A DNA stretch of 64,000 nt from Oscillospiraceae bacterium (lineage in GTDB: Bacteria; Bacillota; Clostridia; Oscillospirales; Oscillospiraceae). The DNA lies in assembly GCA_902798545.1 (NCBI GenBank), contig CADBWQ010000009.1:105315-169314 (forward strand), given 5' to 3'. The position numbers and the translations under genes were made by a program. A model generated the notes under the pieces. The model was given only the letters and a program-made list of their open reading frames with translations, was not told the origin of the DNA and searched no databases. Positions 1,325 through 23,877 of the stretch are shown here, piece after piece. The number at the start of each line of letters is the position of its first letter. Position 1 is the first letter of the stretch.

Positions 1325-1370
1325 GCCTTTCAGATACCGCCGGTATTAACCAACAACGGATAGATAAAAC

Positions 1371-1408
1371 CGCTCTCTGTGGATTTCATTTCCGCAGGGA
1401 GCAGTCTC
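1371..1408 (+). terminator. Probable terminator after glgB
   Basis: The arms GCTCTCTGTGG and CCGCAGGGAGC pair, with G-U wobbles, around a 9-base loop. A pyrimidine-rich tract follows. It lies about 50 bases after the branching enzyme stop. Confidence 0.5.
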
Positions 1409-1472
1409 TTCTTTGTTCACTTTCTTCCGATGCCGGAGATCTCGGCACGCATGCCCTCATACAGTTGAATGA

Positions 1473-2000: not shown

Positions 2001-2006
2001 GATTTT

Positions 2007-2213: not shown

Positions 2214-2386
2214 GCTCCTACGATAAATCTGGCAGAAAGAGAGAGAAAAAGATGACACTGAGAAACACCGCGGCGCTTCTGCACCATGTGATGCGGAAGA
2301 AACCGCACATTAAAAACGTGATCCAGCCGGTTTTCGGCTACTGAAACGATTTGACCCCCTCTCCCGATCGGGGAGGAAATATACAG

Positions 2387-2746
2387 ATGACGGAGACAAG
2401 GATTTATGTCGGTCTGAATGATGCAGAGACCAGAGAACAGAAATATGAAAACGAGACCTATGTGGATATTCTGAAGGATGTATGCCGGAGCCATCACATT
2501 GCCTTTTCGCTGGATATTGAAGAGGGCGGATACTATCACGAGGATGGGGAATATACGGAGGAGACGTCGCTCATCCTGATTCTGGTTGAGGCGGACCCGG
2601 ACACGGTGCAGGCGATTGCGAAAGATCTGTGCGTCCGCTTCCATCAGGAGTCTGTTCTCATCACAGAGGACCGTGTCTCCGGGCGCTTCATCGGGCTGGA
2701 CGACAAACAGCCATCGTCTTCTACAACATCATGCTCTGCCCGATGA
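2387..2746 (+). CDS. DUF3574-like small protein, probably truncated at its 3' end
   Basis: The ATG is preceded by GGGGAGGAAA at good spacing. The first about 105 residues (MTETRIYVGLNDAETREQ, then a conserved-looking ESVLITEDRVSGRFIG) resemble the small DUF3574-type fold. The last 15 residues turn into an S/T/P-rich string (PSSSTTSC) typical of out-of-frame reading. Another frame there encodes a hydrophobic tail (IVFYNIMLCPMIVRLCSG) ending at 2786. I infer a deletion junction near 2705 that replaced the native end. Function unknown. Confidence 0.5.
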   Translation: MTETRIYVGLNDAETREQKYENETYVDILKDVCRSHHIAFSLDIEEGGYYHEDGEYTEETSLILILVEADPDTVQAIAKDLCVRFHQESVLITEDRVSGRFIGLDDKQPSSSTTSCSAR

Positions 2747-2797
2747 TCGTCCGGCTCTGTTCCGGCAAAGCGGAGGTGGCAGCGTGAAAAACGGTAA

Positions 2798-3421
2798 AAA
2801 TTTGTACAGAAGGAGGGCGTTGCTGTCAAATCGGCAAATTTCAACTCCATTGCACAACTGCTTGGCCCAGATTCTGCCTACGCAGATGCTTTTAACGGCG
2901 GAACACTGACCCATACGTTTCTCGATGTGAACGATTATCACAGATATCATTTTCCGGTCAGCGGTACCATTAAGGAGCTTCGAAAGATTCCCGCGGTAAA
3001 CGGCGCCGGCGGTATTACTGTGTGGAATCCGGATACCTGCCGCTACACACTGATTGATGCGATCCCTGGCTGGCAGATGATTGAAACCCGTGACTGTGTG
3101 ATTATCGACACAGAAGGCCATGGGCTTGTTGCCGTACTGCCAATCGGCATGTCACAGATTTGCTCCTGTAACTGGGAGGCGGATCTTGCAGTAGGTGCCC
3201 GTGTTGAAAAAGGAGATCCGATGGGCTATTTCATGTTTGGCGGGAGCGACATCGTTATGGTTTTTCAGGATGGCGTCGACATTGATTTTCTCTGTGAAGC
3301 CGAAGGCGACGGATTTGCGCATATGTTCATGAGTGAACCCTATGCCAGTCTGATCCCGCGCAGCAGTGAGAATACAGTTCCTTCTCACGAAACGCTACCG
3401 GATCTGGATCTGGCGGCATGA
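2798..3421 (+). pseudogene. psd: Phosphatidylserine decarboxylase remnant (C-terminal part only)
   Basis: The frame is open from 2798, just after an in-frame TAA, and contains PSD hallmarks: FNGGTLTHTFLDVNDYHRYH, HFPVSGTI, and MGYFMFGGSDIVMVF, whose Gly-Ser is the self-cleavage site that makes the pyruvoyl group in this family. The N-terminal half of a normal enzyme is missing. The only usable start is a GTG at 2927, which would drop the conserved histidine-containing segment just before it and has no ribosome site. I therefore call it a 5'-truncated pseudogene. A 164-residue protein from GTG remains possible. Confidence 0.65.
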
Positions 3422-3443
3422 TGGATCTTTAATTTACGGGAAA

Positions 3444-3480
3444 AGCGGCAGCCCGGGTTAATCCCGGGCTGCCGCTCATT
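3444..3480. terminator. Strong bidirectional hairpin
   Basis: A perfect 14-base stem, AGCGGCAGCCCGGG with its complement, encloses a 4-5 base loop. It lies between convergent genes ending at 3421 (plus) and 3492 (minus), so it can serve both. Confidence 0.75.
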
Positions 3481-3491
3481 ATTGCGAGTTG

Positions 3492-5435: not shown

Positions 5436-5587
5436 GTTTATCCTTCTTTCGTTAATACTGTGACAGTCCTCCTGCGTCTATTGCTCTGTTTCCTTCCGGC
5501 AGGTTTTGAATACCGTTTTCCATCTCCTCATCTCTGTAACAGATTCATTTTTATCCGCACTGCTGCCACACGGAAAGCCGCGATTTC

Positions 5588-6718
5588 TCAGTCCCGGATG
5601 TCCACCGGGACGCCGTTGAGCTCAACGCCGGTATCTGCAGAGATGAGAATGTATTTTTTCCCATCGATGACCCGGGCTTCCACCAGATAGCTGAACTTTG
5701 GGTTCACGCTGATCTTCACTTCCGGCGTGGCGATCTCCATCCTGCTTGTATTGGTGAGGTTCCCCGGACGCAGTACCGCGTCCTCCCCCATCGCTTCGGT
5801 GCATCCGGCACAGAAGGCCTCGACCTCTTCCGGTGTGGCGCCGCTGTTTTCCAGGATCTCTCCCATCTCCTCGACCGTTACGGTCATGGGCTCGGGGTCT
5901 TTGGTCTCCTTGTAGACCGCGATGCGCTCGTTGAGCTGTTCATGTACAGCCTGGACCACGTCGAAGGTGCAGCCCTTGTCCAGCGCGCCGGTGAGAGTCT
6001 CGTTGAAGCTCTCCTTCTGACGTCCGGCAGACATGGGCACCGGTGTACGGAACACCGCGTCTACAAAGTCCTGGTGGCTGGCATTGATGTTTTTGGAGTA
6101 GAAAAGGGCATTATAGATATTCGCCGCGCGCCCATCGAAGGTCGGGAACAGAAAGCCGAGCTCCGGCGCAGCCACGACCTGGCCGATGATGGAGCTGCGA
6201 AAGCGCTTCTCGTCCGCCACATAGCCCAGCTCTGCCTTGCCCGGTTTTACGGGGCAGATGCTGCAGAGCATATATTTGTATACGTCTCCCCGGTCGTCAT
6301 CTTCGCCGTCCTTGCCGTAGTGCGGTACGTCGTAGACATCGTATGCCATCAGGATCAGATAATTCTGGTCCTCCATGTCAATATGGTCGATGATGCACTG
6401 ATAAAAGGCTTCTCGTAGTCCTGCATCCGCCAGCTCGCTTTTGCGCAATGCGGACAGCAGCCGGTGCTCCTCGCTGTCCATGACCTGCTTCGTGGCAAAG
6501 GAGATATCCAGCAGGTTCTTTCCCAGTGCGCCGGAGAGCGACTTTTTCAGCAGGCTCAGATATTTCTCTGTCTCCTCCTGGGTCAGCAGTCCCAGGGGCT
6601 CGTCGATGGATGAGACAATTTCCTTATTTGTATTGACATAGCAGCCATAGATATGATGGATGGCGTTATGTTCGGGGCGAATCCGACGGCGGATTTCGCC
6701 GAGTTCTTTCTGATTCAT
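5588..6718 (-). CDS. DUF4317 family protein
   Basis: A cytosolic protein of 376 residues beginning MNQKELGEIRRRIRPEHNAI, with the family-typical IYGCYVNTNKEIVSSIDEPL, LCSICPVKPGKAELGY and FPTFDGRAANIYNALFYSKN segments. DUF4317 proteins occur in Clostridia and have no established function that I know of. A ribosome site (AAGGAGAAACG) precedes the ATG. No signal peptide or membrane segment is visible. It is alone on its strand between the phosphatase and the divergent flavoprotein, so context gives no functional clue. Confidence 0.85.
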   Translation of the reverse strand: MNQKELGEIRRRIRPEHNAIHHIYGCYVNTNKEIVSSIDEPLGLLTQEETEKYLSLLKKSLSGALGKNLLDISFATKQVMDSEEHRLLSALRKSELADAGLREAFYQCIIDHIDMEDQNYLILMAYDVYDVPHYGKDGEDDDRGDVYKYMLCSICPVKPGKAELGYVADEKRFRSSIIGQVVAAPELGFLFPTFDGRAANIYNALFYSKNINASHQDFVDAVFRTPVPMSAGRQKESFNETLTGALDKGCTFDVVQAVHEQLNERIAVYKETKDPEPMTVTVEEMGEILENSGATPEEVEAFCAGCTEAMGEDAVLRPGNLTNTSRMEIATPEVKISVNPKFSYLVEARVIDGKKYILISADTGVELNGVPVDIRD

Positions 6719-7009
6719 GGGTTTCGCGTTTCTCCTTGTAAAAATACGCTCCGGCAGACATCGGGTTTCTGTTGCCGGGCAAGAGCCATATGATTCTAAT
6801 CGCCGTGGGCGCGAATGTCAACCGGATTCTGCTTTGGGCTTTTTCCGTTTTCCTTCTTTTGTCCGCAGTTAACCTCGTCAAACCGCACAAAAACATGTCA
6901 GAAATGCCCGTTTTGTATAGTGACTTTTTCCTTTTCTTATGATAGACTCATGACGAGCGTGCTAAATTACACCTTAAAATACCATGATTAACACAGAGAG
7001 GGGAAAACC

Positions 7010-9715
7010 ATGGCAAGAGAAATCCTGTTTGATCTCGGTAAAATGATTACCGACCGCCTTCCCTACAAGTTCGGCGTTAAGAGGCTGACCGAAGAAGACC
7101 CGGAATATATCATTCTCGACCGCGCATGTTCCAATGACGAGATCGCGGAAGTCATGCTGAAGATGGGCCTTCGTAAGCCGAAGACCACCGCGGAGATCGC
7201 GAAGCTCACCGGCAAGTCTGAAGCGCGCGTCGTGGAGCTTCTGACCGATGCCGCCAATCATGGCATCGTGGAATACAACTGGGAGAATCCCCGGCACGAG
7301 AAGCAGTGGTATGTGCAGCTGTTTGTCCCCGGCATTGCCGAGATGACAAACATGGTTCTGGATCAGGTTGAAAAATATCCCGAACTCGCCGAGAGCTTCA
7401 ATAAGATGACCTTCCTCCCGCTGGAGGGGAAAACCCACCTGATCCCCCCCGGCGGCAACGGGATTGGCATGCATGTCATTCCCGTGGAGAAGGCAATCAA
7501 TTCCGTAAACAAGTCTATCTCCATCGAACACATTTCCCACTGGCTGGACAAGTATGACGGACAGTTCTCCGTCGGATACTGTTCCTGCCGCAATGCCCGT
7601 CGTCTTTATGGCGAGGGCTCCGGTGAGATCCAGGATGACTGCTGCATCGGTCTTGGTGACTTTGCCACTTACCTGGTAGAAACCGGCAAGGGCCGTCCCA
7701 TTACCAAGGAAGAAGTGCTCGAAATCTGCCAGAGAGCCGAAGACAACGGTTACGTCCACCAGATCACCAATATTGACGGTGAGGATAAGATTTTCGGCCT
7801 CTGCAACTGCGATGTCGGCGTCTGTTTTGCTCTTCGTACGAGCCAGTATTTCAACACACCGAACCTGTCCGCTTCCGCTTACCGCGCCCATGTCAACAAG
7901 GATAACTGTGTCGCCTGCGGCAAGTGTGTGGAAGTCTGTCCCGCCGGTGCTGTCAAGCTTGGCCAGAAGCTCTGCACAAAGAACGGTGATGTCAAATACC
8001 CGCAGCAGGAGCTTCCAACCGGTCTCAAATGGGGCAAGGATAAGTGGAACCCGAACTATGTGGTCGACAACCGCAAGAACTGCCATGAATCCGGCACGGC
8101 TCCCTGCAAGACTGCCTGCCCCGCCCATATCGCCATCCAGGGCTACATCAAGCTGGCGAAAGAAGGCCGCTATCTCGACGCCCTAAAGCTCATCAAGCAG
8201 GACAATCCCTTCCCCTCGGTCTGTGGATATGTCTGCAACCGCCGCTGTGAAGATGCCTGCACCCGTGGTGCGCTGGATAAGGCGCTTGCCATTGACGAGA
8301 TCAAGAAATTCATTGCCGAACAGGACCTCAAGAGCGCAGAGCGCTATATCCCTGAGCGTCTGTATCGCCGCCCCATCGACAAGCCCTATGACCAGAAGGT
8401 CGCCATCATCGGTGCCGGCCCCGCGGGTCTGAGCTGTGCCTACTACCTGGCCCGTATGGGTTATGAGAATGTCACCGTCTTTGACCGCAATCCGCAGCCT
8501 GGCGGCATGCTCGTCATGGGTATACCCAGCTATCGTCTGGACCGTGCAGCGCTGAAGGGCGAAATCGAAGTTCTGGAGAAGATGGGTGTCCACTTCCAGA
8601 TGAACACTGAAGTCGGCAGGGATGTCACAATCGAAGAGCTCCGTGCCCAGGGCTACAAGGGCTTCTATGTGGCCATCGGCGCACAGAAGAGCTCCAGGCT
8701 GAATATTCCGGGCGAAGAACTGCAGGGCGTGTTCGGCGGTGTGGACTTCCTGCGTGAGGTTAATCTGGGCAATAAACCCGAAGTCGGAAAGAAGTGTGCC
8801 GTCATCGGTGGCGGCAATGTCGCGATGGATGTCTGCCGCACGGCTGTCCGCCTCGGCGCCGAGACCTATGTGATCTACCGCCGTGGCGAGGACGAGATGC
8901 CTGCCGACAGGGAAGAAGTTGCCGAAGCCAGGGAAGAGGGCGTGAAGTTCTGCTTCCTCAACGCGCCGGTCGAGGTTCTTGGCACGGACGGCAGGGTTTG
9001 CGGTCTCAAGGTCGAGCTCATGGAACTGGGCGAGCCGGATGAAAAGGGCCGCCGCAAGCCCGTCGGCACCGGGAAATTTGAGACCATCGAAGTCGACTCC
9101 GTCATCGCCGCAGTCGGTCAGACCATCGACTGGGGCACGCTGGATGTCGGTGCGCTTGTGACAGGCAAGAAGGGCAACGCTGTTGCCGATGCCGTCACCT
9201 ACCAGACCGCGCAGAAAGATATCTTCGTCGGCGGTGACGTTTACACCGGACCGAAATTTGCCATTGACGCGATTGCCGCCGGCCGCGAGGGTGCCGAGTC
9301 TCTGCATCGCTTTGTCAATAACGGCCAGAGTCTGACAGTCGGCCGCAACCTGCGCGAGTTCTACGAGCTCAACAAGGACGATCTGGTCTTTGGCGTCGAC
9401 AGCTTCGACCGTCCCGCACGTCAGCCGATCCTGCACGATACGAAGAAGGCCCGCTCTTTCGAACACGACCGCCTCACCTTCACTGAAGAGCAGGTCAAGA
9501 CGGAAGCCAGCCGCTGCCTGGGCTGCGGCGTCAGCGTGGTGGACCGGAACCGCTGCATCGGCTGCGGACTGTGCACCACAAAATGCATGTTTGACGCGAT
9601 CCACCTGGAGCGCGATGTACCGGATGGCTCGACCATGATCCGCTGCGAAGATAAGGTTGGTCCTCTGCTTAAGAACGTCGCAAAGAAGAGCATTAACATC
9701 ATCCGCAAGAAATAA
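7010..9715 (+). CDS. Multi-cluster iron-sulfur GltD-type FAD/NAD(P)H oxidoreductase
   Basis: A 901-residue cytosolic redox protein. Order of parts: a winged-helix-like N-terminus (about 1-100); a cysteine-rich segment with YCSCR (190-193), DDCC (209-212) and LCNCDVGVC (264-272); a ferredoxin motif CVACGKCVEVC (300-310); a GltD-type cysteine-rich domain (358-417); FAD-binding AIIGAGPAGLSC (465-476); NAD(P)H-binding VIGGGNVAMDV (598-608); and a C-terminal ferredoxin-like segment with CLGCG (836-840) and CIGCGLCTTKC (849-859). It therefore resembles the electron-transfer subunits of glutamate synthase, NfnB and dihydropyrimidine dehydrogenase. The physiological acceptor is not evident. GAGAGGGG lies upstream of the ATG and a hairpin terminator follows. 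Confidence 0.85.
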   Translation: MAREILFDLGKMITDRLPYKFGVKRLTEEDPEYIILDRACSNDEIAEVMLKMGLRKPKTTAEIAKLTGKSEARVVELLTDAANHGIVEYNWENPRHEKQWYVQLFVPGIAEMTNMVLDQVEKYPELAESFNKMTFLPLEGKTHLIPPGGNGIGMHVIPVEKAINSVNKSISIEHISHWLDKYDGQFSVGYCSCRNARRLYGEGSGEIQDDCCIGLGDFATYLVETGKGRPITKEEVLEICQRAEDNGYVHQITNIDGEDKIFGLCNCDVGVCFALRTSQYFNTPNLSASAYRAHVNKDNCVACGKCVEVCPAGAVKLGQKLCTKNGDVKYPQQELPTGLKWGKDKWNPNYVVDNRKNCHESGTAPCKTACPAHIAIQGYIKLAKEGRYLDALKLIKQDNPFPSVCGYVCNRRCEDACTRGALDKALAIDEIKKFIAEQDLKSAERYIPERLYRRPIDKPYDQKVAIIGAGPAGLSCAYYLARMGYENVTVFDRNPQPGGMLVMGIPSYRLDRAALKGEIEVLEKMGVHFQMNTEVGRDVTIEELRAQGYKGFYVAIGAQKSSRLNIPGEELQGVFGGVDFLREVNLGNKPEVGKKCAVIGGGNVAMDVCRTAVRLGAETYVIYRRGEDEMPADREEVAEAREEGVKFCFLNAPVEVLGTDGRVCGLKVELMELGEPDEKGRRKPVGTGKFETIEVDSVIAAVGQTIDWGTLDVGALVTGKKGNAVADAVTYQTAQKDIFVGGDVYTGPKFAIDAIAAGREGAESLHRFVNNGQSLTVGRNLREFYELNKDDLVFGVDSFDRPARQPILHDTKKARSFEHDRLTFTEEQVKTEASRCLGCGVSVVDRNRCIGCGLCTTKCMFDAIHLERDVPDGSTMIRCEDKVGPLLKNVAKKSINIIRKK

Positions 9716-13682: not shown

Positions 13683-14363
13683 TTATGCTTCGTCCCTCAG
13701 CTTCAGATAGAGTGCCGCCTGTGTGCTCTCCATGTAAGGCGAGGTCCAGAAGACAAGGCCAAGGCCAAGCGTCAGAATACCAAGCAGGATCCAGCCGAGG
13801 AAAGACAGATCCATCTTAAACGCCTGCATTTTGTTCCCGTTCATCATCTCGCGGGAACGGGTGATGACTTCGTTCGCGGAAAGTTCAGGATGCTCTGCCA
13901 GAATATAGGGGACCATACGATAGGAATACATCTTAATGATACCCGGTACAATGAACAGAAGCAGCCAAAGCGTCAGGTACAGATCCCGCAGGAACAGGAC
14001 CACAAAATTGTGCCCGTAATTCTGGAAGCCTCTCTTGATGGTGCTGAGGGGAGCAGGGCCTGCTTCGGTGTTTTCGACGAAGAAGGATGCACCGCCGAGC
14101 TCCAGGGGATTCGCCAGAAAGATCTTGATCAGCAGGCAGATGACACCGATCACCGCGAACGCCGACAGGAAGACGAGGATGAATGTTTTATCACCGCTCT
14201 GAACAGCCTGCTGCATTTCCTCCGTGCTGGTGCCGCTTGTTCTTCCGGATGCAGTGGTCGTTCCGGCAAACAGGCTCATCAGCAGTGCGGCCGCAACGCA
14301 GGGCCAGTAGTTTCCTTTAAACGCGGCTTTTCCGCGCTCTTTCATTTCCTGAATCGTCCACAT
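13683..14363 (-). CDS. DUF975 family integral membrane protein
   Basis: A 226-residue membrane protein starting MWTIQEMKERGKAAFKGNYW, the usual DUF975 opening, with AGGAGGAAATCATC before the ATG. Hydrophobic segments lie at about 20-38, 64-84, 116-140 and 188-210, and the conserved-looking loop ALSTIKRGFQNYGHNFVVLFLRD-like region (seen around residues 104-125) and VPYILAEHPELSANEVI are present. DUF975 proteins are common in Firmicutes and uncharacterised. It is monocistronic with a hairpin downstream. Confidence 0.85.
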   Translation of the reverse strand: MWTIQEMKERGKAAFKGNYWPCVAAALLMSLFAGTTTASGRTSGTSTEEMQQAVQSGDKTFILVFLSAFAVIGVICLLIKIFLANPLELGGASFFVENTEAGPAPLSTIKRGFQNYGHNFVVLFLRDLYLTLWLLLFIVPGIIKMYSYRMVPYILAEHPELSANEVITRSREMMNGNKMQAFKMDLSFLGWILLGILTLGLGLVFWTSPYMESTQAALYLKLRDEA

Positions 14364-14502
14364 GATGATTTCCTCCTTTTTTGCTTTCAATGACTGTCAT
14401 ATATGAAGGTGTTCTTTCCTGCTGCCTGTTTCTCGACATGCAGAAGATAACACTTTATTTGTCACAGAACGATCACACGGATTGAAACTGAATAACAGGA
14501 TC

Positions 14503-15219
14503 TCACACATACTGCAGTGTGATTCGAAACACAGGCCTTTCGCTCTTCTCTCCGGCGAAATAGATCCTGCCCGCGTCCTCCGTCCAGCGCAGCATCAGAG
14601 TATCGCCAAAACGTGCCTCTGTGGTGTATTCGGTGCAGATCTCCTTCAGCAGCTTTCCCTCTGCCGCCATCCCCGCACAGTCCTCTGCCAGATCGAGATA
14701 TCTGGTGTTGTTCATATGACCGTTCAGATCAACAAAGCTGTAGGGCACCTCAAAGGCCTTTTCCCGATCACAGTCCTTTTTCCGGATCGCTCCTGGCTGT
14801 GCGCTCTCTTCGCCGGTCACCACGCCTTCAATCTCCACGCCGCAGCTCTCCGGAAAGACCATTTTTCTTGTTTTCGCATCCACCAGGCACCAGATGGCAC
14901 TGGCCTTCAGCAGGGGTTCGCCCGCTTCCGTTTCCAGGCTGTAGTAGCGCGGGAACAGCACGTGCATGGTTTTCCCTGGCCAGCTTTTCAGTACAATCTC
15001 CTCATCATATTCCGGCATCCGGGTTATCTCCGCCTGCTGCATCATCACGACCCAGAGGATTCCTCTGTCCAGTGTCTTCTCCCGTCCCATGCCGAGCTGC
15101 TCGGTATGCCGGATTGAGACTTCCTGCAGCAGCTTGAACAGTTCAGAGCTGCGCAATCTGCGAAACATATCCACATCCCTGCTGCGCAGTTTCAGGTGTT
15201 CCGTATAGATGCCGCTCAT
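14503..15219 (-). CDS. Acyl-ACP thioesterase (FatA/FatB-type)
   Basis: Hydrolyses acyl-ACP to a free fatty acid. This cytosolic 238-residue protein has the double hot-dog layout of the bacterial FatA-like family: YTEHLKLRSRDVDMFRRL near the start, GILWVVMMQQAEITRMP in the first fold, and DLNGHMNNTRYLDL, carrying the Asn/His pair used for catalysis, in the second. Its ATG overlaps the stop of the ACP gene by four bases (ATGA), so translation is coupled. As the last gene of a ligase-ACP-thioesterase operon, it probably unloads the dedicated ACP. Confidence 0.9.
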   Translation of the reverse strand: MSGIYTEHLKLRSRDVDMFRRLRSSELFKLLQEVSIRHTEQLGMGREKTLDRGILWVVMMQQAEITRMPEYDEEIVLKSWPGKTMHVLFPRYYSLETEAGEPLLKASAIWCLVDAKTRKMVFPESCGVEIEGVVTGEESAQPGAIRKKDCDREKAFEVPYSFVDLNGHMNNTRYLDLAEDCAGMAAEGKLLKEICTEYTTEARFGDTLMLRWTEDAGRIYFAGEKSERPVFRITLQYV

Positions 15220-15476
15220 GCCTTGTTCGGCAGGCGCTTATAGATGGCGTCCACAACATCGCCGAGGGTCTGCAGCTTCTTCCACTGCCGCTCCGGGATC
15301 TTCACATCAAACAGCGCTTCCAGCTTGCAGATCACAAGTACGAAGCCCATTGAGTCGATGGCAGTCTCCGTGTTGATTACGCTCCCCTCAGTGAGACCCT
15401 GATCTTTCATATCCGGGAAGCAGTCAAAAATCACTGTCTTCGTCTTTTCGAGCACGTCCTGTCTGGTCATATCCAT
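15216..15476 (-). CDS. Acyl carrier protein, operon-specific
   Basis: An 86-residue carrier protein with the phosphopantetheine site IDSMGFV (Ser42) and the usual four-helix pattern. It overlaps the upstream adenylating enzyme by 10 bases and the downstream thioesterase by 4. It is unlikely to be the housekeeping AcpP, because its sequence (SVINTETAIDSMG, IPERQWKKLQTLGDVVDAIY) is of the secondary-metabolism or D-alanyl-carrier style and it sits inside a private activation cassette. Confidence 0.9.
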   Translation of the reverse strand: MDMTRQDVLEKTKTVIFDCFPDMKDQGLTEGSVINTETAIDSMGFVLVICKLEALFDVKIPERQWKKLQTLGDVVDAIYKRLPNKA

Positions 15477-16810
15477 GTTCCTACTTTCTGCTGGAGTTCC
15501 CAGCGTTTGATTTTGCCGCTGGCCGTTCTTGGCAACGGCTCCCTCGCAAAGATAATTTCCGTGAGCTGCTGACCGCGCGGCAGCTGCTCCATCATCGGTC
15601 TGAGTTTTTCCCAGAGGGCTTTCTTCTCTGCCGCACCGTCATAGACGAGCACCGGCCTGTCCTCCCACAGGGTGACCGCAAGTTCGGTATTTTCCAGGCA
15701 TCTCATGAGTTCCGCCTCATACTCCGGCAGGAAGATCTTCGTTCCGTCCCCCAGTACCAGGATGTCCTTTTTCCGTCCGGTGATATGCAGCCGCCCGTTC
15801 TCGTCAAAATGGCCCAGATCTCCGGTGGAGAGGATGCCGTGCCGCAGTACTTCTTCAGTATACTGCGGCCATTTGTAATACTCCTGCATCATACAGGTTG
15901 GGGCTGCGATCAGGATCTCCCCGTCCTCGGCAATCGTGACGGTGTCGTCCGGGCAGATTTCCATCGCATAGGGGTCGTCGCTCACCGAGATCGCCACGCC
16001 GGAACTGGTCTCCGTCATGCCATACCCGAAGCTCACCCGAATGCCCCTGGTTTTCACCGCCTGAAGCAGCTGCGCCGGGCAATCGCCCGCTCCGACCAGG
16101 ACCAGCTTCAGTTCTTCATTGATGCAGTTCTGCCGGAGCAGAAAGCCCAGCAGCCGCGGGACTACCGATACTGCCGTCGGACGGTAGAAGTCCAGATCGT
16201 CCAGATAGTGTCTGGCACCGCGGCCCAGCGCCACAGTCGCTCCGCAGTTCAGTCCCCAGAGCAGTCCGCACACGAAGCCGAAAACATGGCCCAGCGGCAG
16301 CATGCACAGCAGCCTGTCTTCCGGCTGCAGGGGCAGCATCGCCGAGCCGTTGTAAGCGCTCTGGCAGAGGCTGTGATCCGTCAGCACAACGGCCTTGGCT
16401 CTTTCCGTCGTTCCGGATGTGAAGAACAGGATCTTCCGCTCTCCGTCGGTCACGCCTTGTGTCAGGTTCCCTCTCAGCTCTGTGCAGAGTTCCTCGTCCC
16501 CCCAGAGCAGATCGATATCTGTGTAGGCAATCAGTCCCCTCAGCACCGACTCCGGCGCAGATTCATCCAGCAGCACCACCTGAAGTCCGGCGATGTTCGC
16601 CGCGAAGAGCTCAATCACACATCCGAGGCTGCCGTCCGAGAGCAATCCAAGACAGGTTTTTCCGCATTTTTTCAGTTCTTCCGCCCGCTCACGTACGCGT
16701 GCGAGCAGTTCGTGGTAACTGCAATCTGCGTGTTCGTATCGCAGTGCGGTCTGATCCGGGCTCTGCGAAGCCCAGTAAGAGAGTATATCCTCAAAGCTGT
16801 CAAAGCGCAC
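15467..16810 (-). CDS. AMP-dependent acyl-activating enzyme (ANL superfamily)
   Basis: Adenylates a carboxylic acid and probably loads it on the neighbouring ACP. Core motifs: LFFTSGTTERAKAVVLTD (A3), FGYGMTETSSGVAIS (A5), STGDLGHFDENGRLHITGRKKD (A7/A8, shown in parts) and PRTASGKIKRW with the A10 catalytic Lys. Length is about 447 residues, shorter than typical acyl-CoA synthetases. I chose the GTG at 16810 because AAGGAGGG lies 7 bases before it; ATG at 16834 is an alternative. It is the first gene of the operon, divergent from the fatty-acid isomerase homologue. Whether the substrate is a fatty acid or another acid cannot be read from sequence. Confidence 0.85.
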   Translation of the reverse strand: MRFDSFEDILSYWASQSPDQTALRYEHADCSYHELLARVRERAEELKKCGKTCLGLLSDGSLGCVIELFAANIAGLQVVLLDESAPESVLRGLIAYTDIDLLWGDEELCTELRGNLTQGVTDGERKILFFTSGTTERAKAVVLTDHSLCQSAYNGSAMLPLQPEDRLLCMLPLGHVFGFVCGLLWGLNCGATVALGRGARHYLDDLDFYRPTAVSVVPRLLGFLLRQNCINEELKLVLVGAGDCPAQLLQAVKTRGIRVSFGYGMTETSSGVAISVSDDPYAMEICPDDTVTIAEDGEILIAAPTCMMQEYYKWPQYTEEVLRHGILSTGDLGHFDENGRLHITGRKKDILVLGDGTKIFLPEYEAELMRCLENTELAVTLWEDRPVLVYDGAAEKKALWEKLRPMMEQLPRGQQLTEIIFAREPLPRTASGKIKRWELQQKVGTWI

Positions 16811-17015
16811 CCATATCCCTCCTTCCCTTTTCATTTGTTTCGTTCTTTCCTGATATAATAATACCATAACCGGTCTGACAAAAAAAGAGATTTTGCAAAA
16901 TTCATAATTCTTTGACACATCCTCGAAATTATATAGTGAAAAAGCTGCACTTCTGTTGTATAATTAACACAACTGGGCAAAAATAAACTTTGACCTTTAT
17001 TTACGGAGGAAAAAC

Positions 17016-18404
17016 ATGGACAAAAACATTCGCATCGCAATCATCGGCGGCGGCCCCGCCGGCCTCAGCGCAGGTATGTACCTGGAGAAGAAAGGCTATG
17101 AGAACTACACCATTTTTGAGCGTCTGGATCGCGTCGGCGGCAAGTGCTGGTCTCCGCACTACAACGGACGCCGCTATGAGATGGGCGCCATCATGGGTGT
17201 TCCATCCTACTATGCCGTTCACGACGTCGAGGAGTTCTGCGGTATCACCCACGACGGTCCGCAGCTCAACCGCAACTATAAGGATGCGAGCGGTAAGGTG
17301 ATCGAACCCTTTGCCCGCTCTGTCGGCAACATCATCAGGAACCCCTGGCTGCTCAAGATGAAAAAACAGCTCAAGACCTTTGGTGAACTGCTGGAAACCA
17401 AGTACAAGGGCTATGACCTCAACGGTCACCGCGGTGTTGCCGAGGGTCGTTACGACGGCTACGCCGTGACGCCGGGCCGCGAGAAGGTCGAGGGCGTAAA
17501 CCCGAACCTGAAGGATCTTGCTCTGCCGTTCAAGGAATTCTGCGAGAAGAACAAGATTCCCCTGGTTCAGAAGATCTGGATCGGACCCTTCACTTCCTTC
17601 GGCTATGGTTACTTTGATGAAATTCCCGCTGCCTATGTTCTGAAATATCTGGACTATCAGACCTGCATGAATTTCGTGAAGGTCAATCTTTGGACATGGA
17701 AAGAAGGCACCCAGTACATCTGGGAACAGCTGAATGATCACCTGAAGCATCCCGCCCTGCTCAACAGCACCATTGACAAGGTCGAGCGCAAGGATGGCAA
17801 GGTCTTCATCACGGTCAACGGCCAGGTTGAGGAGTTTGATAAGGTCATCGTCACCGCTCCGCTCTACATTCCCAATAAACGTGATGACGGCCAGAAGGGC
17901 ATGGTCGAGTACTTCGATGCCCGCGAGGATGAAAAGTCCCTCTTCTCCAAGATCGACTATGAGCGCTATGACGTTCAGGCCTTCCTCACCAGGCCTGAGG
18001 ACCACCCCGAAATCTCTTACTACGTGTTTGACAACATGGTTCCCGAGAAGCTCGGCCACCTGATGGTCTATTATCGCCGCTGGAGAGATCAGATTGACCA
18101 GGTCATTACCACCTATGCGCTGCGCAAGCACAAGAACTCCGCCGAGATCCCCTACGATACCTGCCGCCAGATGGTGCAGGATGACCTCAAGACCATGGGC
18201 AACCCGGCCAAGGAGATCATCAATGAATGGTCCGTGTACTACTTCCCCCATGTTTTCACCAAGGACTATGCCGACGGCTGGTATGACAAGGTTGAAGCCA
18301 TGCAGGGCAAGTACGACACCTACTATGCCGGTGAAGTCATGAGCTTCGGCGACATGGATGAGACCGCAGAGTACTCCCGCGAGCTGGTCGAACGCTTCTT
18401 CTGA
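17016..18404 (+). CDS. Polyunsaturated fatty acid isomerase homologue (FAD-dependent)
   Basis: A 462-residue FAD protein that closely follows the Cutibacterium acnes linoleate/polyenoic fatty acid isomerase as I remember it: AIIGGGPAGLSAGMYLEKKG (dinucleotide site, 8-27), VGGKCWSPHYNGRRYEMGAI, IMGVPSYYAV, GYGYFDEIPAAYVLKYLDY, LWTWKEGTQ, and a C-terminal GWYDKVEAMQGKYDTYYAGE. The Arg that binds the substrate carboxylate in that enzyme (Arg88) aligns with R86 here. It would move a double bond in free linoleate or linolenate to give conjugated acids. The start has ACGGAGGAAAA upstream. A terminator-like hairpin separates it from the next gene. Substrate is inferred from homology. Confidence 0.8.
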   Translation: MDKNIRIAIIGGGPAGLSAGMYLEKKGYENYTIFERLDRVGGKCWSPHYNGRRYEMGAIMGVPSYYAVHDVEEFCGITHDGPQLNRNYKDASGKVIEPFARSVGNIIRNPWLLKMKKQLKTFGELLETKYKGYDLNGHRGVAEGRYDGYAVTPGREKVEGVNPNLKDLALPFKEFCEKNKIPLVQKIWIGPFTSFGYGYFDEIPAAYVLKYLDYQTCMNFVKVNLWTWKEGTQYIWEQLNDHLKHPALLNSTIDKVERKDGKVFITVNGQVEEFDKVIVTAPLYIPNKRDDGQKGMVEYFDAREDEKSLFSKIDYERYDVQAFLTRPEDHPEISYYVFDNMVPEKLGHLMVYYRRWRDQIDQVITTYALRKHKNSAEIPYDTCRQMVQDDLKTMGNPAKEIINEWSVYYFPHVFTKDYADGWYDKVEAMQGKYDTYYAGEVMSFGDMDETAEYSRELVERFF

Positions 18405-18414
18405 TCGGCATAAG

Positions 18415-18446
18415 CAGGGGCGGTTAGAATGCCGTCCCTGTTTTTT
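18415..18446 (+). terminator. Intercistronic terminator or attenuator
   Basis: CAGGGGCGG pairs with CCGTCCCTG (one G-U) around a 7-base loop, followed by six Ts. It would lower expression of the two downstream redox genes relative to the isomerase homologue, or separate them. Confidence 0.7.
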
Positions 18447-18486
18447 CAGTAATCTGCAGTAACCTGTAATACGAAAGGAAACATGT

Positions 18487-20043
18487 ATGAAATTCTACAA
18501 AGACCATTACGACGTCGTAATCATCGGCGGTGCACTGGCCGGTATGTCCGCCTGCCTGCAGCTGCAGGCCTGGGGTATCAAGGACATCCTGATCCTTGAA
18601 AAGCATAACATGCCTGGCGGTCTTGCCACCGACTTCGTGCGCAATGGGTTTGAGATCGAAGCCACCCTGCATGAGATGATGTCCATCGGTCAGCCCGGCA
18701 AGCGGCTCAAGGTCGGCCAGTTCTTTGACGATATGGGCGTTAATATCGACTGGCTCCCGGTCCATGAGTGCTACCGTGTGGCACTGCCGAATTCCGGCAT
18801 TGACAAGATTTTGCACCATGACTACGACGGCAGCTACACAACTGTTGCCAAAGAGATTGACGAAGTCTGTCCCGGGACCTATGAGAAGGTCCATGAGCTT
18901 ATGCTTCTCTGCCGCCGTGTCTACGACAGTATGAACGTTCTCTCCGTCACTCCGATGAGCAAGGTGCAGATGCTTCTGAAGCATCCCGACTTTGTCAAGA
19001 CCGTCGGTTACACCGCCACGGAAGTGATCAACACCTTTGACCTGCCGAAAAAGGCCGTCGAGATGCTGACCCCGTACTGGATCTATGTCGGTAACCGCAT
19101 GGACGATCTGCCCTTTACGATCTATGCCTTCCTGATGGCCGACTACTTCACCGGCAGCTATGTCTGCCGCGGCTTCAGCCATGAGATGAGCATGAAACTC
19201 CAGGCCAAGTGTGAGGAGCAGGGCGCACAGTATGAGTTCAATCAGGAAGTTGAAAAGATCCTTGTCCGCGATGGGAAGGTCTACGGTGTCCGCACCGCCC
19301 GTGGAGATGAGATTCACTGCGACTACGTGATCTCCGGTCCCTATCCCAATAAGGTCTATTCCCAGATGATCGAGCCGCTTACCGAGGTACCTACCGGTGC
19401 GATCAAGATGATCAATAACCGCAAGCTCTCCGTGACTCCGGTCTCCGTCATCATGGTCATCGAAGGCACCCCGGAGGAGAACGGCATCATCAACTACTCT
19501 ACCTTCTCCGGCACCACCATGGACACCAACAAGATCTGGGAGAACTATTCCAACATCACCGAGCCCTACAACTATATCACTACCATCTGCCTCAATTATG
19601 CCAATCCCACCCTGCCGGAGGGGTATACACAGCTCTCCATTACGGCTCTGGTTCCCTCCAAGCCCTTCGAGAATATCCGGGAAGAGGATTACTTCGATCT
19701 CAAGCGCCGCCTCGCCAGCGAGATGATTGACGAATGCATCAAGATCACCAAGGTAGACTTCCGCCCCCGCATCACCGAGATTGAAGTCACTACCCCGATG
19801 ACCGTGGCCCACTATGTCGGTGCCTGGAAGGGCAATATTTACGGCTATCTGCATTCCATGGAGGACCATGCGGTCGCCCGTCTCCAGATGAAGGAGAAAG
19901 ACCACTTCATCGATGGTCTGGAATTTGCCGGTGCCCACGGTATGAGCGGTGACGGCATGGGTCCGCAGATTACCAACGGCCGTGCAGCTGCCAAGGCAGT
20001 TCGCGAAGATCTTGAGAGAAAGAAGGAGGCCGCGAAGAAATGA
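18487..20043 (+). CDS. CrtI/RetSat-like FAD oxidoreductase
   Basis: A 518-residue flavoprotein of the phytoene desaturase/carotenoid isomerase/retinol saturase superfamily. It has a slightly atypical dinucleotide motif VVIIGGALAGMSACLQLQ (10-27), EKHNMPGGLATDF, a long substrate-binding middle, VISGPYPNKVY, and the C-terminal flavin-closing segment GLEFAGAHGMSGDGMGPQ with TNGRAAAKAV. Members either desaturate, isomerise or saturate C=C bonds in long hydrophobic chains. Next to a fatty-acid isomerase homologue and directly fused by a 4-base overlap to an NAD(P)H-[2Fe-2S] reductase, I infer a reductive role, such as saturation of a conjugated diene. The exact substrate is unknown. Confidence 0.78.
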   Translation: MKFYKDHYDVVIIGGALAGMSACLQLQAWGIKDILILEKHNMPGGLATDFVRNGFEIEATLHEMMSIGQPGKRLKVGQFFDDMGVNIDWLPVHECYRVALPNSGIDKILHHDYDGSYTTVAKEIDEVCPGTYEKVHELMLLCRRVYDSMNVLSVTPMSKVQMLLKHPDFVKTVGYTATEVINTFDLPKKAVEMLTPYWIYVGNRMDDLPFTIYAFLMADYFTGSYVCRGFSHEMSMKLQAKCEEQGAQYEFNQEVEKILVRDGKVYGVRTARGDEIHCDYVISGPYPNKVYSQMIEPLTEVPTGAIKMINNRKLSVTPVSVIMVIEGTPEENGIINYSTFSGTTMDTNKIWENYSNITEPYNYITTICLNYANPTLPEGYTQLSITALVPSKPFENIREEDYFDLKRRLASEMIDECIKITKVDFRPRITEIEVTTPMTVAHYVGAWKGNIYGYLHSMEDHAVARLQMKEKDHFIDGLEFAGAHGMSGDGMGPQITNGRAAAKAVREDLERKKEAAKK

Positions 20044-21230
20044 GTATTAAAGTCAAAGGATTTCTGCAGGACGTCGGCGGAGCCTCCCGCGTCACAAAAC
20101 TGAGAGAGCAGAATTTTGCCAACGGCTCCACCATCATTGATCCAAAGGACCCGATCCGTGAGCTGGCGGATAAGCTTCATCCGGAGCATATGACCTTCAG
20201 AGTCGTAGATATCCGCGAAGCCTCCCCGACCTCCCGTATCTTCCGTTTTGAGTCGGCGGACGGTCATATCCCGGTGTTCCAAAGCGGCCAGTATGTAAAC
20301 TTCCGCCTGAAGATCGGCGACAGCGTCCTTTCCCGCCCTTATACCATTTCCTCTGCTCCCTATGAGGCCAGGGGCGAGCACCCCTTCTTTGAGATTACGG
20401 TCCGCCGCAATGTTCCATATCTTGTACCGGACTATCTCTTTGAAAACGTGAAGGTCGGCGATGAGCTCCATGGCGCACTTCCTTTCGGTTTCTTCTACTG
20501 GGAGCCTCTTCGGGACAGCAAAGAGATTGTCGCTCTGGCCGGAGGAAGCGGCATCACCCCCTTCCATTCCATGGCTAAAGAGATTATGAGCGGCAAGATG
20601 AAGGGCTGCAAGCTTACCATTCTCTACGGTTCTGTCAAAGCCAACGACATTGTCCTCAAGGACGAGCTTGACGCCATCGAGAAGGCCTGCCCGGATGTCA
20701 AGGTCGTTCATGTTCTGTCAGACGAGCCCGGCTGGGAAGGCGAGAAGGGCTTTATCACAAAAGAGATTATCGAGAAGTACTCGACGCCCGACTGCACCTA
20801 TATGTTCTGCGGTCCGCTGGCGATGTTCCGCTTTGTGAAAAAGGCTCTGGATGAGATGGGAATCGGTCCGCGCCGCTTCCGTCATGACGTTGTGAACAAT
20901 CCCGCCGATGTCTCCACGCTGCCCGGTTATCCGAAGGGCACCGAGACCAGAACTTTCAAGATCACTGTTCTGCGCGGCATCCACGAGGATATTATCGATG
21001 CTGCTGCCTCCGAGCCCGTTGCCGTTGCGTTGGAGCGGGCGGGTATTGCCATTGATACACACTGCCGCAATGGCGAGTGCGGTTTCTGCCGCAGCCATCT
21101 GCTGGAGGGCGAGATCTTTGTCTCTCCCATTGGCGACGGCCGCCGCCGCATGGACAAGGAGATGGGCTGGTTCCACGCCTGCTCTTCCTGGCCGCTCACA
21201 GACCTGAAGATCAAGATCCCAATCATGTAA
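20040..21230 (+). CDS. NAD(P)H-dependent ferredoxin reductase with C-terminal [2Fe-2S] domain
   Basis: A 396-residue electron-transfer protein. Residues about 55-280 form the FNR module: SRPYTISSAP for FAD, LAGGSGITPFHSMAKE for the pyridine nucleotide, and YMFCGPLAMF. Residues about 305-396 form a plant-type ferredoxin with CRNGECGFCRSHL, and the fourth Cys in FHACSSWP. The N-terminal about 50 residues are an extension. It starts inside the stop of the CrtI-like gene, indicating tight coupling, so it most likely passes electrons from NAD(P)H to that flavoprotein. A strong terminator follows. Confidence 0.9.
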   Translation: MSIKVKGFLQDVGGASRVTKLREQNFANGSTIIDPKDPIRELADKLHPEHMTFRVVDIREASPTSRIFRFESADGHIPVFQSGQYVNFRLKIGDSVLSRPYTISSAPYEARGEHPFFEITVRRNVPYLVPDYLFENVKVGDELHGALPFGFFYWEPLRDSKEIVALAGGSGITPFHSMAKEIMSGKMKGCKLTILYGSVKANDIVLKDELDAIEKACPDVKVVHVLSDEPGWEGEKGFITKEIIEKYSTPDCTYMFCGPLAMFRFVKKALDEMGIGPRRFRHDVVNNPADVSTLPGYPKGTETRTFKITVLRGIHEDIIDAAASEPVAVALERAGIAIDTHCRNGECGFCRSHLLEGEIFVSPIGDGRRRMDKEMGWFHACSSWPLTDLKIKIPIM

Positions 21231-21256
21231 GATGTCGTTTGCCCTGTTATAGCACA

Positions 21257-21294
21257 CTGCAGCCGCTCCATTCTGGAGCGGCTGCAGTTTTATC
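21257..21294. terminator. Strong hairpin terminator
   Basis: CTGCAGCCGCTCCA and its exact complement enclose TTC, followed by TTTTAT. It lies between convergent genes. Confidence 0.8.
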
Positions 21295-21316
21295 ATAATA
21301 TCTGTTTTGTTTTCAA

Positions 21317-22030
21317 TCAGGGGCTCTGATTGGAATCTCTTGTCCAGAGGAGATCACCGTGCTGGTTTCTGTAGTCAATGTGGATATTATCGACCGTCTT
21401 TCCGGCATAGGCCGCATAGGTTCTGCCAAAGTTATAGAAATCATTGACGATCTCACGTTCCTTGCCGCTCTCGTTCAGAGAAGTCACAACGACCGTGAAT
21501 ACCGTGCCGTCGTCGTTCATCGAAATCTCATCAATATTCGGGCAGTTCAGATCTTCAGCAAATGCGTCAAGCTGGGTCTGAATATGTGCACGGACGGCCT
21601 CAAGGTCTCCTGCCTCAATGCCCGGAATCAAGTATTCCTCCGGGATCGGTGGTGCCGTCGGAGTCGGTGTGGGTGTGGGAACCGGTGTCGGCGTGGGTGT
21701 GGGAACCGGTGTCGGTACGGGCTCTTCCGTATTACCCGAATCGTTTTCGGCAGGATTCGATTGGGCATCCGAGGAAGTCACCGAACTCTGCTGTGATGAG
21801 AGGTTCCCGGTCGATAGTTCATCTCTCCGGCTGCGGCTATCCAGCAGATATCTTGTAATGAAGTATCCCGCCGCAAGGAGCAGGCAGATAACGATACCGA
21901 CAATCAGGATCTTCAGGCCTTTTCCCCGGCCCCTGTCTCTGTCTTCGTTCTCTTCGTCAAATTCGATCTCCACCAAAGGGAGATCTTCCTCTCCCAGCTC
22001 AAGATCTTCAATATTCTCATCTTTCCACAT
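21317..22030 (-). CDS. Single-pass membrane protein with Pro-Thr stalk
   Basis: About 237 residues with an acidic cytoplasmic N-terminus (MWKDENIEDLELGEEDLPL), one transmembrane helix near residues 40-62 (ILIVGIVICLLLAAGYFI), a Ser/Asn/Glu-rich linker, a PTPVPTPTPTPV-type rigid stalk, and a C-terminal extracellular domain of about 100 residues (EAVRAHIQTQLDAFAEDL, YRNQHGDLLWTRD) that I do not recognise; its shape suggests an NTF2-like alpha+beta fold. I start at ATG 22030 because GGGGGAGGAG lies upstream. It is probably an envelope-anchored protein of unknown role. Confidence 0.7.
   Translation of the reverse strand: MWKDENIEDLELGEEDLPLVEIEFDEENEDRDRGRGKGLKILIVGIVICLLLAAGYFITRYLLDSRSRRDELSTGNLSSQQSSVTSSDAQSNPAENDSGNTEEPVPTPVPTPTPTPVPTPTPTPTAPPIPEEYLIPGIEAGDLEAVRAHIQTQLDAFAEDLNCPNIDEISMNDDGTVFTVVVTSLNESGKEREIVNDFYNFGRTYAAYAGKTVDNIHIDYRNQHGDLLWTRDSNQSP
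21660..21721. repeat. Tandem repeat encoding the Pro-Thr stalk
   Basis: GGTGTGGGAACCGGTGTCGG-type units repeat in tandem and encode the PTP/VPTP stalk. Such repeats readily change copy number between strains. Confidence 0.7.
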
Positions 22031-22263
22031 GGTTTCTGTCTCCTCCCCCTGTTTTGTCTGCAAATCCGGTTCTCCCACGGCGTCCGGGGCTGCCTGAGAA
22101 ATCCGAAATTTATGTCAACTACATCATACCGTCAACGAAACGCTTTGTCAATAAACAGACGGTTACAGAAAGGTGAAAAAACAACATGAAAAACTCACCC
22201 TCTTGCAGGTTCCCTGGAAACATGTTAAAATGATTTATTCTGTTTTCCTGTGTGGTGAACGTT

Positions 22264-23877
22264 ATGAGAAAATTCATGGTCATTCTAACAGCCGTACTGA
22301 TTGTTTTGATTCTGGTTCTGGGCGGTGGACTTGTCGGCTCTTTCTATGTTTCAACCCTCGACACCAACTATCCGAACCTCTCCGTCGGCAATATTCCGGT
22401 CGGCGGTATGACCCGGGAAGAGACCGTTGAAGCACTGGATGCTGCCAATTGGGCGGAGCATCTGTCCGTCCCGCTCCGGGTGACCACCGTGGGCGGCCTA
22501 AGCTTCGATGTGGACCCCGCTCAGGCCGGTCTTGCAGCGACTTCTGAACAGGTTGCTGATCTCGCCCTTGCTTATGGGCACGACGGCAACATGTTTGAGA
22601 ACTTCGGTACATATCTCAGGAGTCTGCTTCACCCCGCCGTCCTGGACACCGCCTCTCAGAATGCCAACCGGGACTATATTCGTTCCTGCATAGCCGGGAA
22701 CAAAGCGGATATCGAAGCCCTGCTGGGTGATGCAGAATACACCCCTGACTACGAGCAGGAGCAGCTTGTGCTTCGCAAGGGGTGGGGGCAGCTGCGTCTG
22801 GACGAGGATGCACTGGAGGACGCCATTGTGACAGCTCTTCAAAACGGTGAGACGGAGCTGCACTTTTCCCAGCTGATCGGCGGTCTGTTGTGTCCGGATT
22901 TCAATGCGATCCATACTGCGCTCCTGCAGGAGCCGCAAGATGCAAAATTCACAGATGACGGCCGCTTCGAGGTCATCGACGAGGTTGTCGGATGCAACTT
23001 TGACGTTGACGCTGCTCAGCAGCTCTGGGGTGCGGCAGAGCCTGCAGCTGAGATCCGGATTCCGATGTCGGTCACCTGGCCAGCGGTCACCGGTCAGCAG
23101 CTGCGCGATTCACTTTTCCACGATCTGCTCGGCGCCTGCACCACCAGTTACTGGAACTCTTCCCCCAACCGTATCAGCAATGTGGAGCTTGCCAGTTCAA
23201 AGATCGACGGCACGATTCTGTATCCGGGCGATATCTTCTCCTATAACACGGTTGTCGGTGAACGCACTCTGGAAGGTGGTTTTCTTCCTGCCCCGGCCTA
23301 TGTTGACGGCGATGTAAAAGATGAGGTCGGCGGCGGCGCCTGTCAGGTTTCCAGCACACTCTATGCGGCAACGCTCTTTGCATTTCTGGAGACTGTCGAA
23401 CGCACCAATCATTACTTCCCGGTCTCTTACATGCAGCTTGGAACGGATGCGACGGTCACCATTCCTGATGGCGGTAATGTGATGGACCTCAAGTTTAAAA
23501 ACAACAAGAGCCATCCCATCAAGATCGTCACTTATTCCGAAGTTGACGAGGACAATTATGTCCGTGATCTAACGTTTGAAATCTGGGGCACGTTGGAAGA
23601 TGATGACTATATGCCCGTAGAATTTGACAACTCCTGGGGCTGGTCTCTGACCTATGACAGGTTTATTGATCCCGCTTATCCGGATCGGCCCGGTTACAAG
23701 ATCAAGTTGGAGCACGAAAAGTATTACTTCACGGACGAACAGGGCGAGGGCTATCGCACCCTGACCTACCGCCGTGTCTATGATACGGACGGCAATCTGG
23801 TAGCCGAGGGCATGCTGAATCCGCTTCTCCCCAGCGGTGGTCCTGCGATGGATACCTATTACGAGCACAACAGTTAA
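22264..23877 (+). CDS. VanW family protein with peptidoglycan-binding-like N-terminal domain
   Basis: A membrane-anchored extracellular protein of about 537 residues. An N-terminal signal anchor (residues about 4-30) is followed by PG_binding_4-like material (PNLSVGNIPVGGMTREETV), then the VanW domain with YWNSSPNRISNVELASSKI, LYPGDIFSYNTVVGERT and GGGACQVSSTLYAATLF, and a G5-like C-terminal tail. VanW proteins are of unclear biochemical function and were first seen beside vancomycin-resistance genes; this one has no van neighbours. I prefer ATG 22264; GTG 22252 is in frame. Confidence 0.88.
   Translation: MRKFMVILTAVLIVLILVLGGGLVGSFYVSTLDTNYPNLSVGNIPVGGMTREETVEALDAANWAEHLSVPLRVTTVGGLSFDVDPAQAGLAATSEQVADLALAYGHDGNMFENFGTYLRSLLHPAVLDTASQNANRDYIRSCIAGNKADIEALLGDAEYTPDYEQEQLVLRKGWGQLRLDEDALEDAIVTALQNGETELHFSQLIGGLLCPDFNAIHTALLQEPQDAKFTDDGRFEVIDEVVGCNFDVDAAQQLWGAAEPAAEIRIPMSVTWPAVTGQQLRDSLFHDLLGACTTSYWNSSPNRISNVELASSKIDGTILYPGDIFSYNTVVGERTLEGGFLPAPAYVDGDVKDEVGGGACQVSSTLYAATLFAFLETVERTNHYFPVSYMQLGTDATVTIPDGGNVMDLKFKNNKSHPIKIVTYSEVDEDNYVRDLTFEIWGTLEDDDYMPVEFDNSWGWSLTYDRFIDPAYPDRPGYKIKLEHEKYYFTDEQGEGYRTLTYRRVYDTDGNLVAEGMLNPLLPSGGPAMDTYYEHNS

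Follow-up and report, generated by a model that had tools for sequence, protein, structure and literature searches.

A conserved six-gene locus of rumen Clostridia that may isomerise and reduce polyunsaturated fatty acids

We analysed a 64,000-nucleotide stretch of DNA from an Oscillospiraceae bacterium (NCBI GenBank assembly GCA_902798545.1, contig CADBWQ010000009.1, positions 105,315 to 169,314 of the forward strand; hereafter the window), in which an initial annotation had proposed a fatty-acid activation and biohydrogenation locus. As that annotation described, the open reading frame list of the window contains six genes, all intact, that form two divergent operons with a gap of 208 bases between them. 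The left operon, on the minus strand, holds a ligase (LIG), an acyl carrier protein (ACP) and a thioesterase (TE), each overlapping its neighbour, and the right operon, on the plus strand, holds an isomerase (PAI), a CrtI-like gene (CRT) and a reductase-ferredoxin gene (FNR), with CRT and FNR overlapping by 4 bases. This gene content recurs in dozens of genomes with mostly differing flanking genes, and comparison of the sequences suggests that the locus is probably a biohydrogenation module of rumen Clostridia. The features considered are as follows.

14503-15219, minus strand: acyl-ACP thioesterase TE, 238 amino acids (PF01643 4.5e-22, PF20791 9e-9)
15216-15476, minus strand: stand-alone ACP, 86 amino acids (NCBIfam ACP models and PF00550, below cut-offs)
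15467-16807, minus strand: AMP-forming acyl ligase LIG, of the acyl-CoA or acyl-ACP synthetase type (PF00501 7.6e-37)
16808-17015, no strand: divergent promoter region (alignment of intergenic regions)
17016-18404, plus strand: PAI-type polyunsaturated fatty acid double-bond isomerase, an FAD enzyme, 462 amino acids (PDB 2b9w, E 4e-132)
18487-20043, plus strand: CrtI/RetSat/CrtISO-superfamily FAD oxidoreductase CRT, 518 amino acids (TIGR02734, predicted fold)
20040-21230, plus strand: FNR-type flavoprotein with a C-terminal [2Fe-2S] ferredoxin domain (PF00970, PF00175, PF00111)
21256-21288, plus strand: terminator-like hairpin of 15 pairs behind the right operon (stem search)
7010-9715, plus strand: IsrA-like Fe-S/FAD/NAD(P)H oxidoreductase, 901 amino acids (PF14691, PF07992, Fer4)

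The first right-hand gene had been assigned as a polyunsaturated fatty acid isomerase, and the full-length match of this Amino_oxidase family protein to the linoleate isomerase of Cutibacterium acnes (C. acnes), whose structure is known (PDB 2b9w), bears this out. The match covers residues 2-139 and 166-462, with identity at 206 of 384 aligned positions, and the residues at 2b9w Arg88, Phe168 and Phe193, which we take to be substrate-site residues, are unchanged in the window protein and in 10 aligned relatives. In the C. acnes enzyme FAD acts as a transient hydride acceptor. The conjugated linoleic acid (CLA) that C. acnes forms is the trans-10,cis-12 isomer (PMC7339423). PAI genes in rumen metagenome-assembled genomes have themselves already been published.

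The second gene, placed by the initial annotation in the superfamily that saturates or isomerises C=C bonds, matches Amino_oxidase, crtI_fam TIGR02734 (7e-28, 97.6 bits against a curated cut-off of 238.1) and the carotenoid isomerase or CrtISO model TIGR02730 (5.7e-23, 81.5 bits against 586.9). Every NCBIfam family listed for CRT scores far below its curated cut-off, and therefore the family does not fix the reaction. The AlphaFold (AF2) model, made with 24 sequences (pLDDT 80.1, pTM 0.81), has as its best PDB match the gamma-carotenoid desaturase 4rep (TMq 0.76, E 4e-25, 16% identity), and as modelled CRT has the CrtI/CrtISO/RetSat superfamily fold with an FAD Rossmann domain, so that family matches, model and fold match agree with the superfamily assignment. 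In FNR, FAD_binding_6, NAD_binding_1 and Fer2 domains lie in one chain, which matches the benzoate dioxygenase reductase 1krh at 1.5e-24. That FNR is a dedicated electron donor to CRT, as had been supposed, gains weight from its position next to CRT in 13 of 14 opened CRT loci that are rearranged or lack PAI, the exception being L184.

In the left operon, the TE translation holds the sequence DLNGHMNNTRY, presumably the hot-dog motif. ACP matches NCBIfam ACP models at up to 3.4e-11, all below their curated cut-offs, and PF00550 (PP-binding) at 8.5e-4 (20 bits against a cut-off of 20.8), and we assume that the Ser in its DSMG is the ACP motif. The ligase matches the long-chain FACL model NF004837 at 1.2e-45, below its cut-off. 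Its start is most likely the GTG at 16807, behind the Shine-Dalgarno site GGAAGGAGGG, and not the mechanically called GTG at 16918, because this site is strong and the starts of relatives agree; the divergent gap is therefore 208 bases.

Within this gap, alignment of 23 intergenic regions, the window's among them, reveals conserved blocks at 16911-16917 (TTTGACA), 16932-16939 (TATAGTGA) and 16957-16964 (TGTATAAT). A promoter-like site, GTGAAA-17-TATAAT, lies at 16936-16964; the region holds no more of these sites than shuffled sequence does (4 vs 4.3), and the promoter is therefore argued from cross-species conservation alone. Terminator-like stems number 10 in the region vs 5.9 in shuffles (sd 2.7), and an Rfam search of 14000-22300 returned zero families at the gathering threshold.

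To follow the gene set across genomes we scanned named genome contigs with a PAI alignment and kept the best 80 of 434 PAI relatives, counting a side of a locus only where at least 2.6 kb (left) or at least 2.9 kb (right) of sequence was present. LIG, ACP and TE are divergent to PAI in 70 of the 72 loci with left room (exceptions L057 and L094), and CRT and FNR lie downstream of PAI on the same strand in all 67 loci with right room. At L057 (positions 1-8000) some 7.4 kb separate ligase and PAI, as though an insertion had entered the divergent promoter region, and at two Lachnospiraceae loci (L090 and L105) the ligase-PAI gap exceeds 1 kb, the usual gap being about 200 bases.

Among 200 genomes of the window's own family PAI was found at 1e-30 in 12, the window genome included, and CRT at 56% identity or more occurs in 11 of these 12 PAI-positive genomes vs 2 of the 188 PAI-negative ones (Fisher 2e-15, kinship ignored). 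Seven of the 11 other PAI-positive genomes carry all six genes divergently on a single contig (G004, G174, G084, G036, G080, G181 and G164). In G187 the six genes are spread over two contigs, G123 has five on one contig and, on another, TE-ACP-LIG with a partial second PAI, G109 has just PAI-CRT-FNR, and G014 has a PAI of 55% identity without CRT. Farther afield, a phylum sample of 398 genomes yielded PAI at 1e-25 in 6, the five besides the window's at 30-33% identity, and CRT at 1e-60 in 3, the two besides the window's at no more than 37%. Queries made from two flanking open reading frames, ABC and g452, were uninformative, the latter mostly matching the ligase itself at 24-30%.

In a second family of the same class (f7, 250 genomes) PAI was detected at 1e-25 in 10 genomes and CRT at 1e-30 in 9. 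Here L174 has the six genes divergent, with left genes merely 33-40% identical, L175 has the order PAI-CRT-FNR-LIG-ACP-TE, L177 and L178 have LIG-ACP-TE-PAI-CRT-FNR followed by an IsrA-like gene, all on one strand, and L176 has the three right-hand genes only. The co-occurrence and gene order that the initial annotation had proposed to examine are thus borne out: the set recurs in family, named and f7 genomes, the order is kept in named loci with room, and at L175, L177 and L178 the order is changed with the content kept. Rearranged order with retained content is a stronger sign of common function than shared order alone, and chance clustering is rejected, since the set is conserved even where its flanks or its gene order differ.

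The sources of these relatives point to ruminants. Among the record titles of the 80 named loci 31 name a ruminant (28 RGIG titles with host and organ and 3 others), 38 more are RUG records, which we take to mean rumen uncultured genomes, and 11 are silent. This habitat figure is biased, since the 80 loci were kept for their closeness to a rumen genome, and related loci do not count as independent. By taxon label 42 are Oscillospiraceae, 31 Bacillota without a family, 3 Lachnospiraceae, 3 Actinomycetota and 1 Anaerovoracaceae. The copies labelled Coriobacteriales or Coriobacteriaceae (L052, L087 and L095) reflect either cross-phylum transfer or binning error, a risk with short contigs, of which L052 is one.

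A second putative reductase accompanies PAI in many of these genomes. In the window itself the IsrA-like gene lies 5 kb from the cluster in a separate operon, and has the length of IsrA and its domain set; further near full-length relatives occur in the window genome on contigs C15, C22 and C25. An Fe-S/FAD oxidoreductase of 900-950 amino acids lies beside the cluster in 33 of the 80 named loci, with HypB in 17 and HypA in 11. Where there was room to judge, an IsrA-like gene follows FNR within 600 bases on the same strand in 22 of 64 loci, and an IsrA-like gene or HypB stands behind TE in 10 of 64. Moreover, at four loci without CRT, namely L029, L180, L181 (with a gap of about 1.1 kb) and L182, an IsrA-like gene lies next to PAI or a short way behind it, and at L029 (4097-9368) PAI, the IsrA-like gene, HypA and HypB form a tight same-strand row. 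At a cut-off of E 1e-200 IsrA-like genes occur in 12 of 12 PAI-positive vs 22 of 188 PAI-negative family genomes (8 of 8 vs 14 of 98 counted per genus; kinship ignored), and they are present in all 22 PAI-positive genomes searched.

HypA and HypB are not beside the window's own IsrA-like gene; a HypB pair lies near another paralogue, on C22. HypB scores over cut-off in 22 of 22 PAI-positive genomes vs 4 of 14 control genomes, and the [NiFe]-hydrogenase large-subunit family matches 11 of the 22, each over 69 positions only, and 4 of the 14 controls over cut-off. Because HypB is found in all 22 and the large-subunit family in half of them, a hydrogenase may not account for HypB throughout the PAI-positive genomes, with the provisos that the genomes are incomplete and that other nickel enzymes were not searched.

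The right-hand genes appear not to have travelled always together. Over the 80 loci identity to the window is 81-97% for PAI and falls to 49% for CRT, and L036, L047 and L056 pair a PAI of 88-91% with a CRT of 55-56%, here called type B. Trees were built from 69 of the 80 loci and the window, 11 loci having been dropped for a short or missing CRT, and the CRT types were cut by identity before the trees were made. On the CRT tree (a quick tree) the type-B CRTs form one clade (SH-aLRT 98). A single clade of type-B loci on the PAI tree was rejected at a cost of 144 log-likelihood units (approximately unbiased (AU) test, p 1.3e-5); taken by themselves, however, the well-supported PAI branches are compatible with a single origin of type B. 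We read this conflict to mean that CRT-FNR has been exchanged relative to PAI, so that the pair would have a partly separate history.

Taken together these comparisons suggest a route of isomerisation followed by reduction, for which we infer each reaction, its substrate and direction, and the ACP step. PAI would take free linoleic or linolenic acid and shift one cis double bond via its FAD to give a conjugated diene, which would be trans-10,cis-12 if the C. acnes enzyme is followed. FNR would oxidise NAD(P)H and pass the electrons through its own FAD and [2Fe-2S] centre to the FAD of CRT, which in turn would reduce the conjugated diene to a monoene. Alongside, the ligase may load fatty acids on the dedicated ACP and TE release them, a load-and-release cycle in which substrate or product could be held soluble, channelled or kept from phospholipid synthesis. 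The IsrA-like Fe-S/FAD reductase, often with its HypA/HypB chaperones, would be a second reductase in many relatives, and the benefit to the cell could lie in an electron sink and in the removal of toxic polyunsaturated acids. The logic of isomerising and then reducing, predicted by the initial annotation, is strengthened by the ruminant source of most close relatives and by loci without CRT in which PAI stands beside a second putative diene reductase.

In a bolder form of this proposal, uncultured rumen Clostridia would owe their biohydrogenation of polyunsaturated fatty acids to this gene set, plausibly by the trans-10 route behind milk fat depression, with a fixed isomerase, exchangeable reductase modules (CRT/FNR, or the IsrA-like enzyme associated with nickel chaperones) and substrates held on a dedicated ACP. 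This we put forward tentatively, as a possibility that has less in its favour than the general assignment of the locus to biohydrogenation.

Several observations, together with the low family scores of CRT and the habitat bias given above, weigh against the proposal. CRT-FNR pairs with CRT 70-73% identical to that of the window occur in two genomes that lack PAI (L147 and L148), the former among a GntR regulator and a major facilitator superfamily (MFS) transporter, and the latter (19-8814; CRT 70% and FNR 79% identical to the window pair, no PAI) with a CoA-transferase III, two short-chain dehydrogenases/reductases and an MFS transporter. Because of these close pairs the CRT-FNR subfamily may act on substrates beyond fatty acids. 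L185 in f7 likewise has CRT-FNR with no PAI in the stretch, and L184 (7550-13788) is a row of CRT, HypA, an IsrA-like gene and two HypB genes with neither PAI nor FNR. Conversely, no partner was detected for PAI at L179, which a contig end cuts, or at L183, and LIG-ACP-TE was not found in the stretch at L028 and L176 nor within 8 kb at L094. The left operon itself is puzzling: LIG and TE together consume ATP for no obvious gain, and ACP is superfluous for PAI if free acids are bound. The initial interpretation is partly supported and on the whole strengthened: the isomerase, the CrtI fold, the electron donor, the conservation and the isomerise-then-reduce logic find support, and the CRT-FNR pairs without PAI count against a role confined to fatty acids.

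The division of labour between the two reductases could also be different. The IsrA-like enzyme may be the true conjugated-diene reductase, and CRT-FNR a reduced-flavin cis-trans or positional isomerase of the CrtISO kind, remodelling the products of PAI either ahead of reduction or following it. The match of CRT to the CrtISO model, below cut-off though it is, the IsrA-like gene that adjoins PAI at the four loci without CRT or follows FNR closely in about a third of those with room, and its presence in every PAI-positive genome searched are in keeping with this. Many loci of the window type, however, have CRT-FNR without an adjacent IsrA-like gene, and a dedicated FNR partner would make more sense for an enzyme with a net uptake of electrons than for an isomerase that is redox-neutral, and we consider this arrangement unlikely.

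We think it somewhat less likely again that CRT-FNR acts on a non-fatty substrate such as a terpenoid, steroid or quinone and is linked to PAI by shared regulation or hitch-hiking. Besides the close pairs at L147 and L148 and the conflict between the CRT and PAI trees (AU p 1.3e-5), more distant pairs at other loci speak for it. Seven CRT loci of family genomes with no PAI in the stretch were opened (L147-L153), each with an FNR homologue next after CRT, and at least 8 further distant CRT matches lie outside this opened subset. One of the seven, L151 on contig C18, is a second, distant CRT-FNR pair in the window's own genome (31% and 39% identity). Set against these, the pair is downstream of PAI at all 67 loci with room, and stays with PAI when the order changes.

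Least probable of the three, in our judgement, is that the module builds rather than removes, with LIG-ACP-TE and the flavoenzymes producing an altered fatty acid or a polyene that serves the membrane, signalling or defence, and CRT acting as a desaturase. The nearest fold to CRT is indeed a carotenoid desaturase, a ligase with free-standing ACP and TE would recall biosynthetic cassettes, and ACP matches the cispentacin ACP model at 2.6e-5, below its cut-off; but an NAD(P)H-[2Fe-2S] donor would run in the wrong direction for desaturation in an anaerobe, the six genes include no chain-building gene, and most close relatives come from ruminants, whose food brings in polyunsaturated fat. A Lactobacillus-type hydratase pathway is rejected, none of its families being matched by the six genes.

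Rumen biohydrogenation has been under study since the 1960s. If the biohydrogenation proposal holds, the six-gene set may, as judged here from sequence, be a genetic basis for the conversion of plant oils to trans and saturated fat by the gut microbes of ruminants (cattle, sheep and goats). A set conserved in this way could serve as a marker in metagenomes and as a starting point for work on milk fat depression and on healthier ruminant fat, and it supplies three proteins that can be expressed and assayed directly. Uncharacterised relatives of IsrA would also gain a plausible natural substrate class, the conjugated fatty acids. Which bacteria produce trans-10 intermediates is called unclear in one report (PMC7339423). 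In line with the initial annotation, which knew of no gene set with this content, the literature searched, mostly outside subscription journals and in part-text form, yielded no description of this gene set or of linked reductases.

Compared with known systems, the window PAI shares full-length homology and a conserved FAD site with the C. acnes enzyme, and differs in that the rumen-genome PAI sits within a cluster of reductase and acyl-carrier genes. The conjugated linoleic acid reductase CLA-R of Butyrivibrio fibrisolvens, reportedly described by Fukuda in 2007, would carry out the same kind of step as that proposed here, a comparison made by reaction and not by sequence. CLA-R reduces conjugated 18:3 and trans-11,cis-13 CLA (PMC2654759), and another paper describes it as missing from KEGG, COG and Pfam, for which reason the fatty acid oxidoreductase could not be followed through genomes (PMC4478896). 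With CrtI phytoene desaturase, CrtISO and RetSat, CRT shares the fold and FAD domain of the superfamily, whereas it falls far under the family cut-offs and has an FNR-ferredoxin partner next to it in the opened loci, L184 excepted. The saturation pathway of Lactiplantibacillus (CLA-HY/DH/DC/ER; PMC13365329) has a similar overall outcome, fatty-acid saturation, but draws on hydratase, decarboxylase and enone-reductase families that the six genes here do not match. Finally, IsrA itself (VUZ27132.1, clade 9) is a putative reductase of isoprene, a conjugated diene, from the isr operon of Acetobacterium wieringae, and among 988 homologues HypA is nearby in about 73% and HypB in about 56% (PMC10134865). 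The same paper puts forward conjugated, unfunctionalised C=C bonds as possible substrates and reports that in A. woodii and A. fimetarium an oleate hydratase lies next to an IsrA homologue, and in its text the words 'linoleic' and 'rumen' have 0 occurrences. Compared by description rather than sequence, the IsrA-like proteins here resemble IsrA in length, in their PF14691, PF07992 and 4Fe-4S domains and, in some relatives though not at the window gene, in their HypA/HypB neighbours, and differ in that the family is here linked with PAI, whose predicted product is a fatty-acid diene with conjugated bonds.

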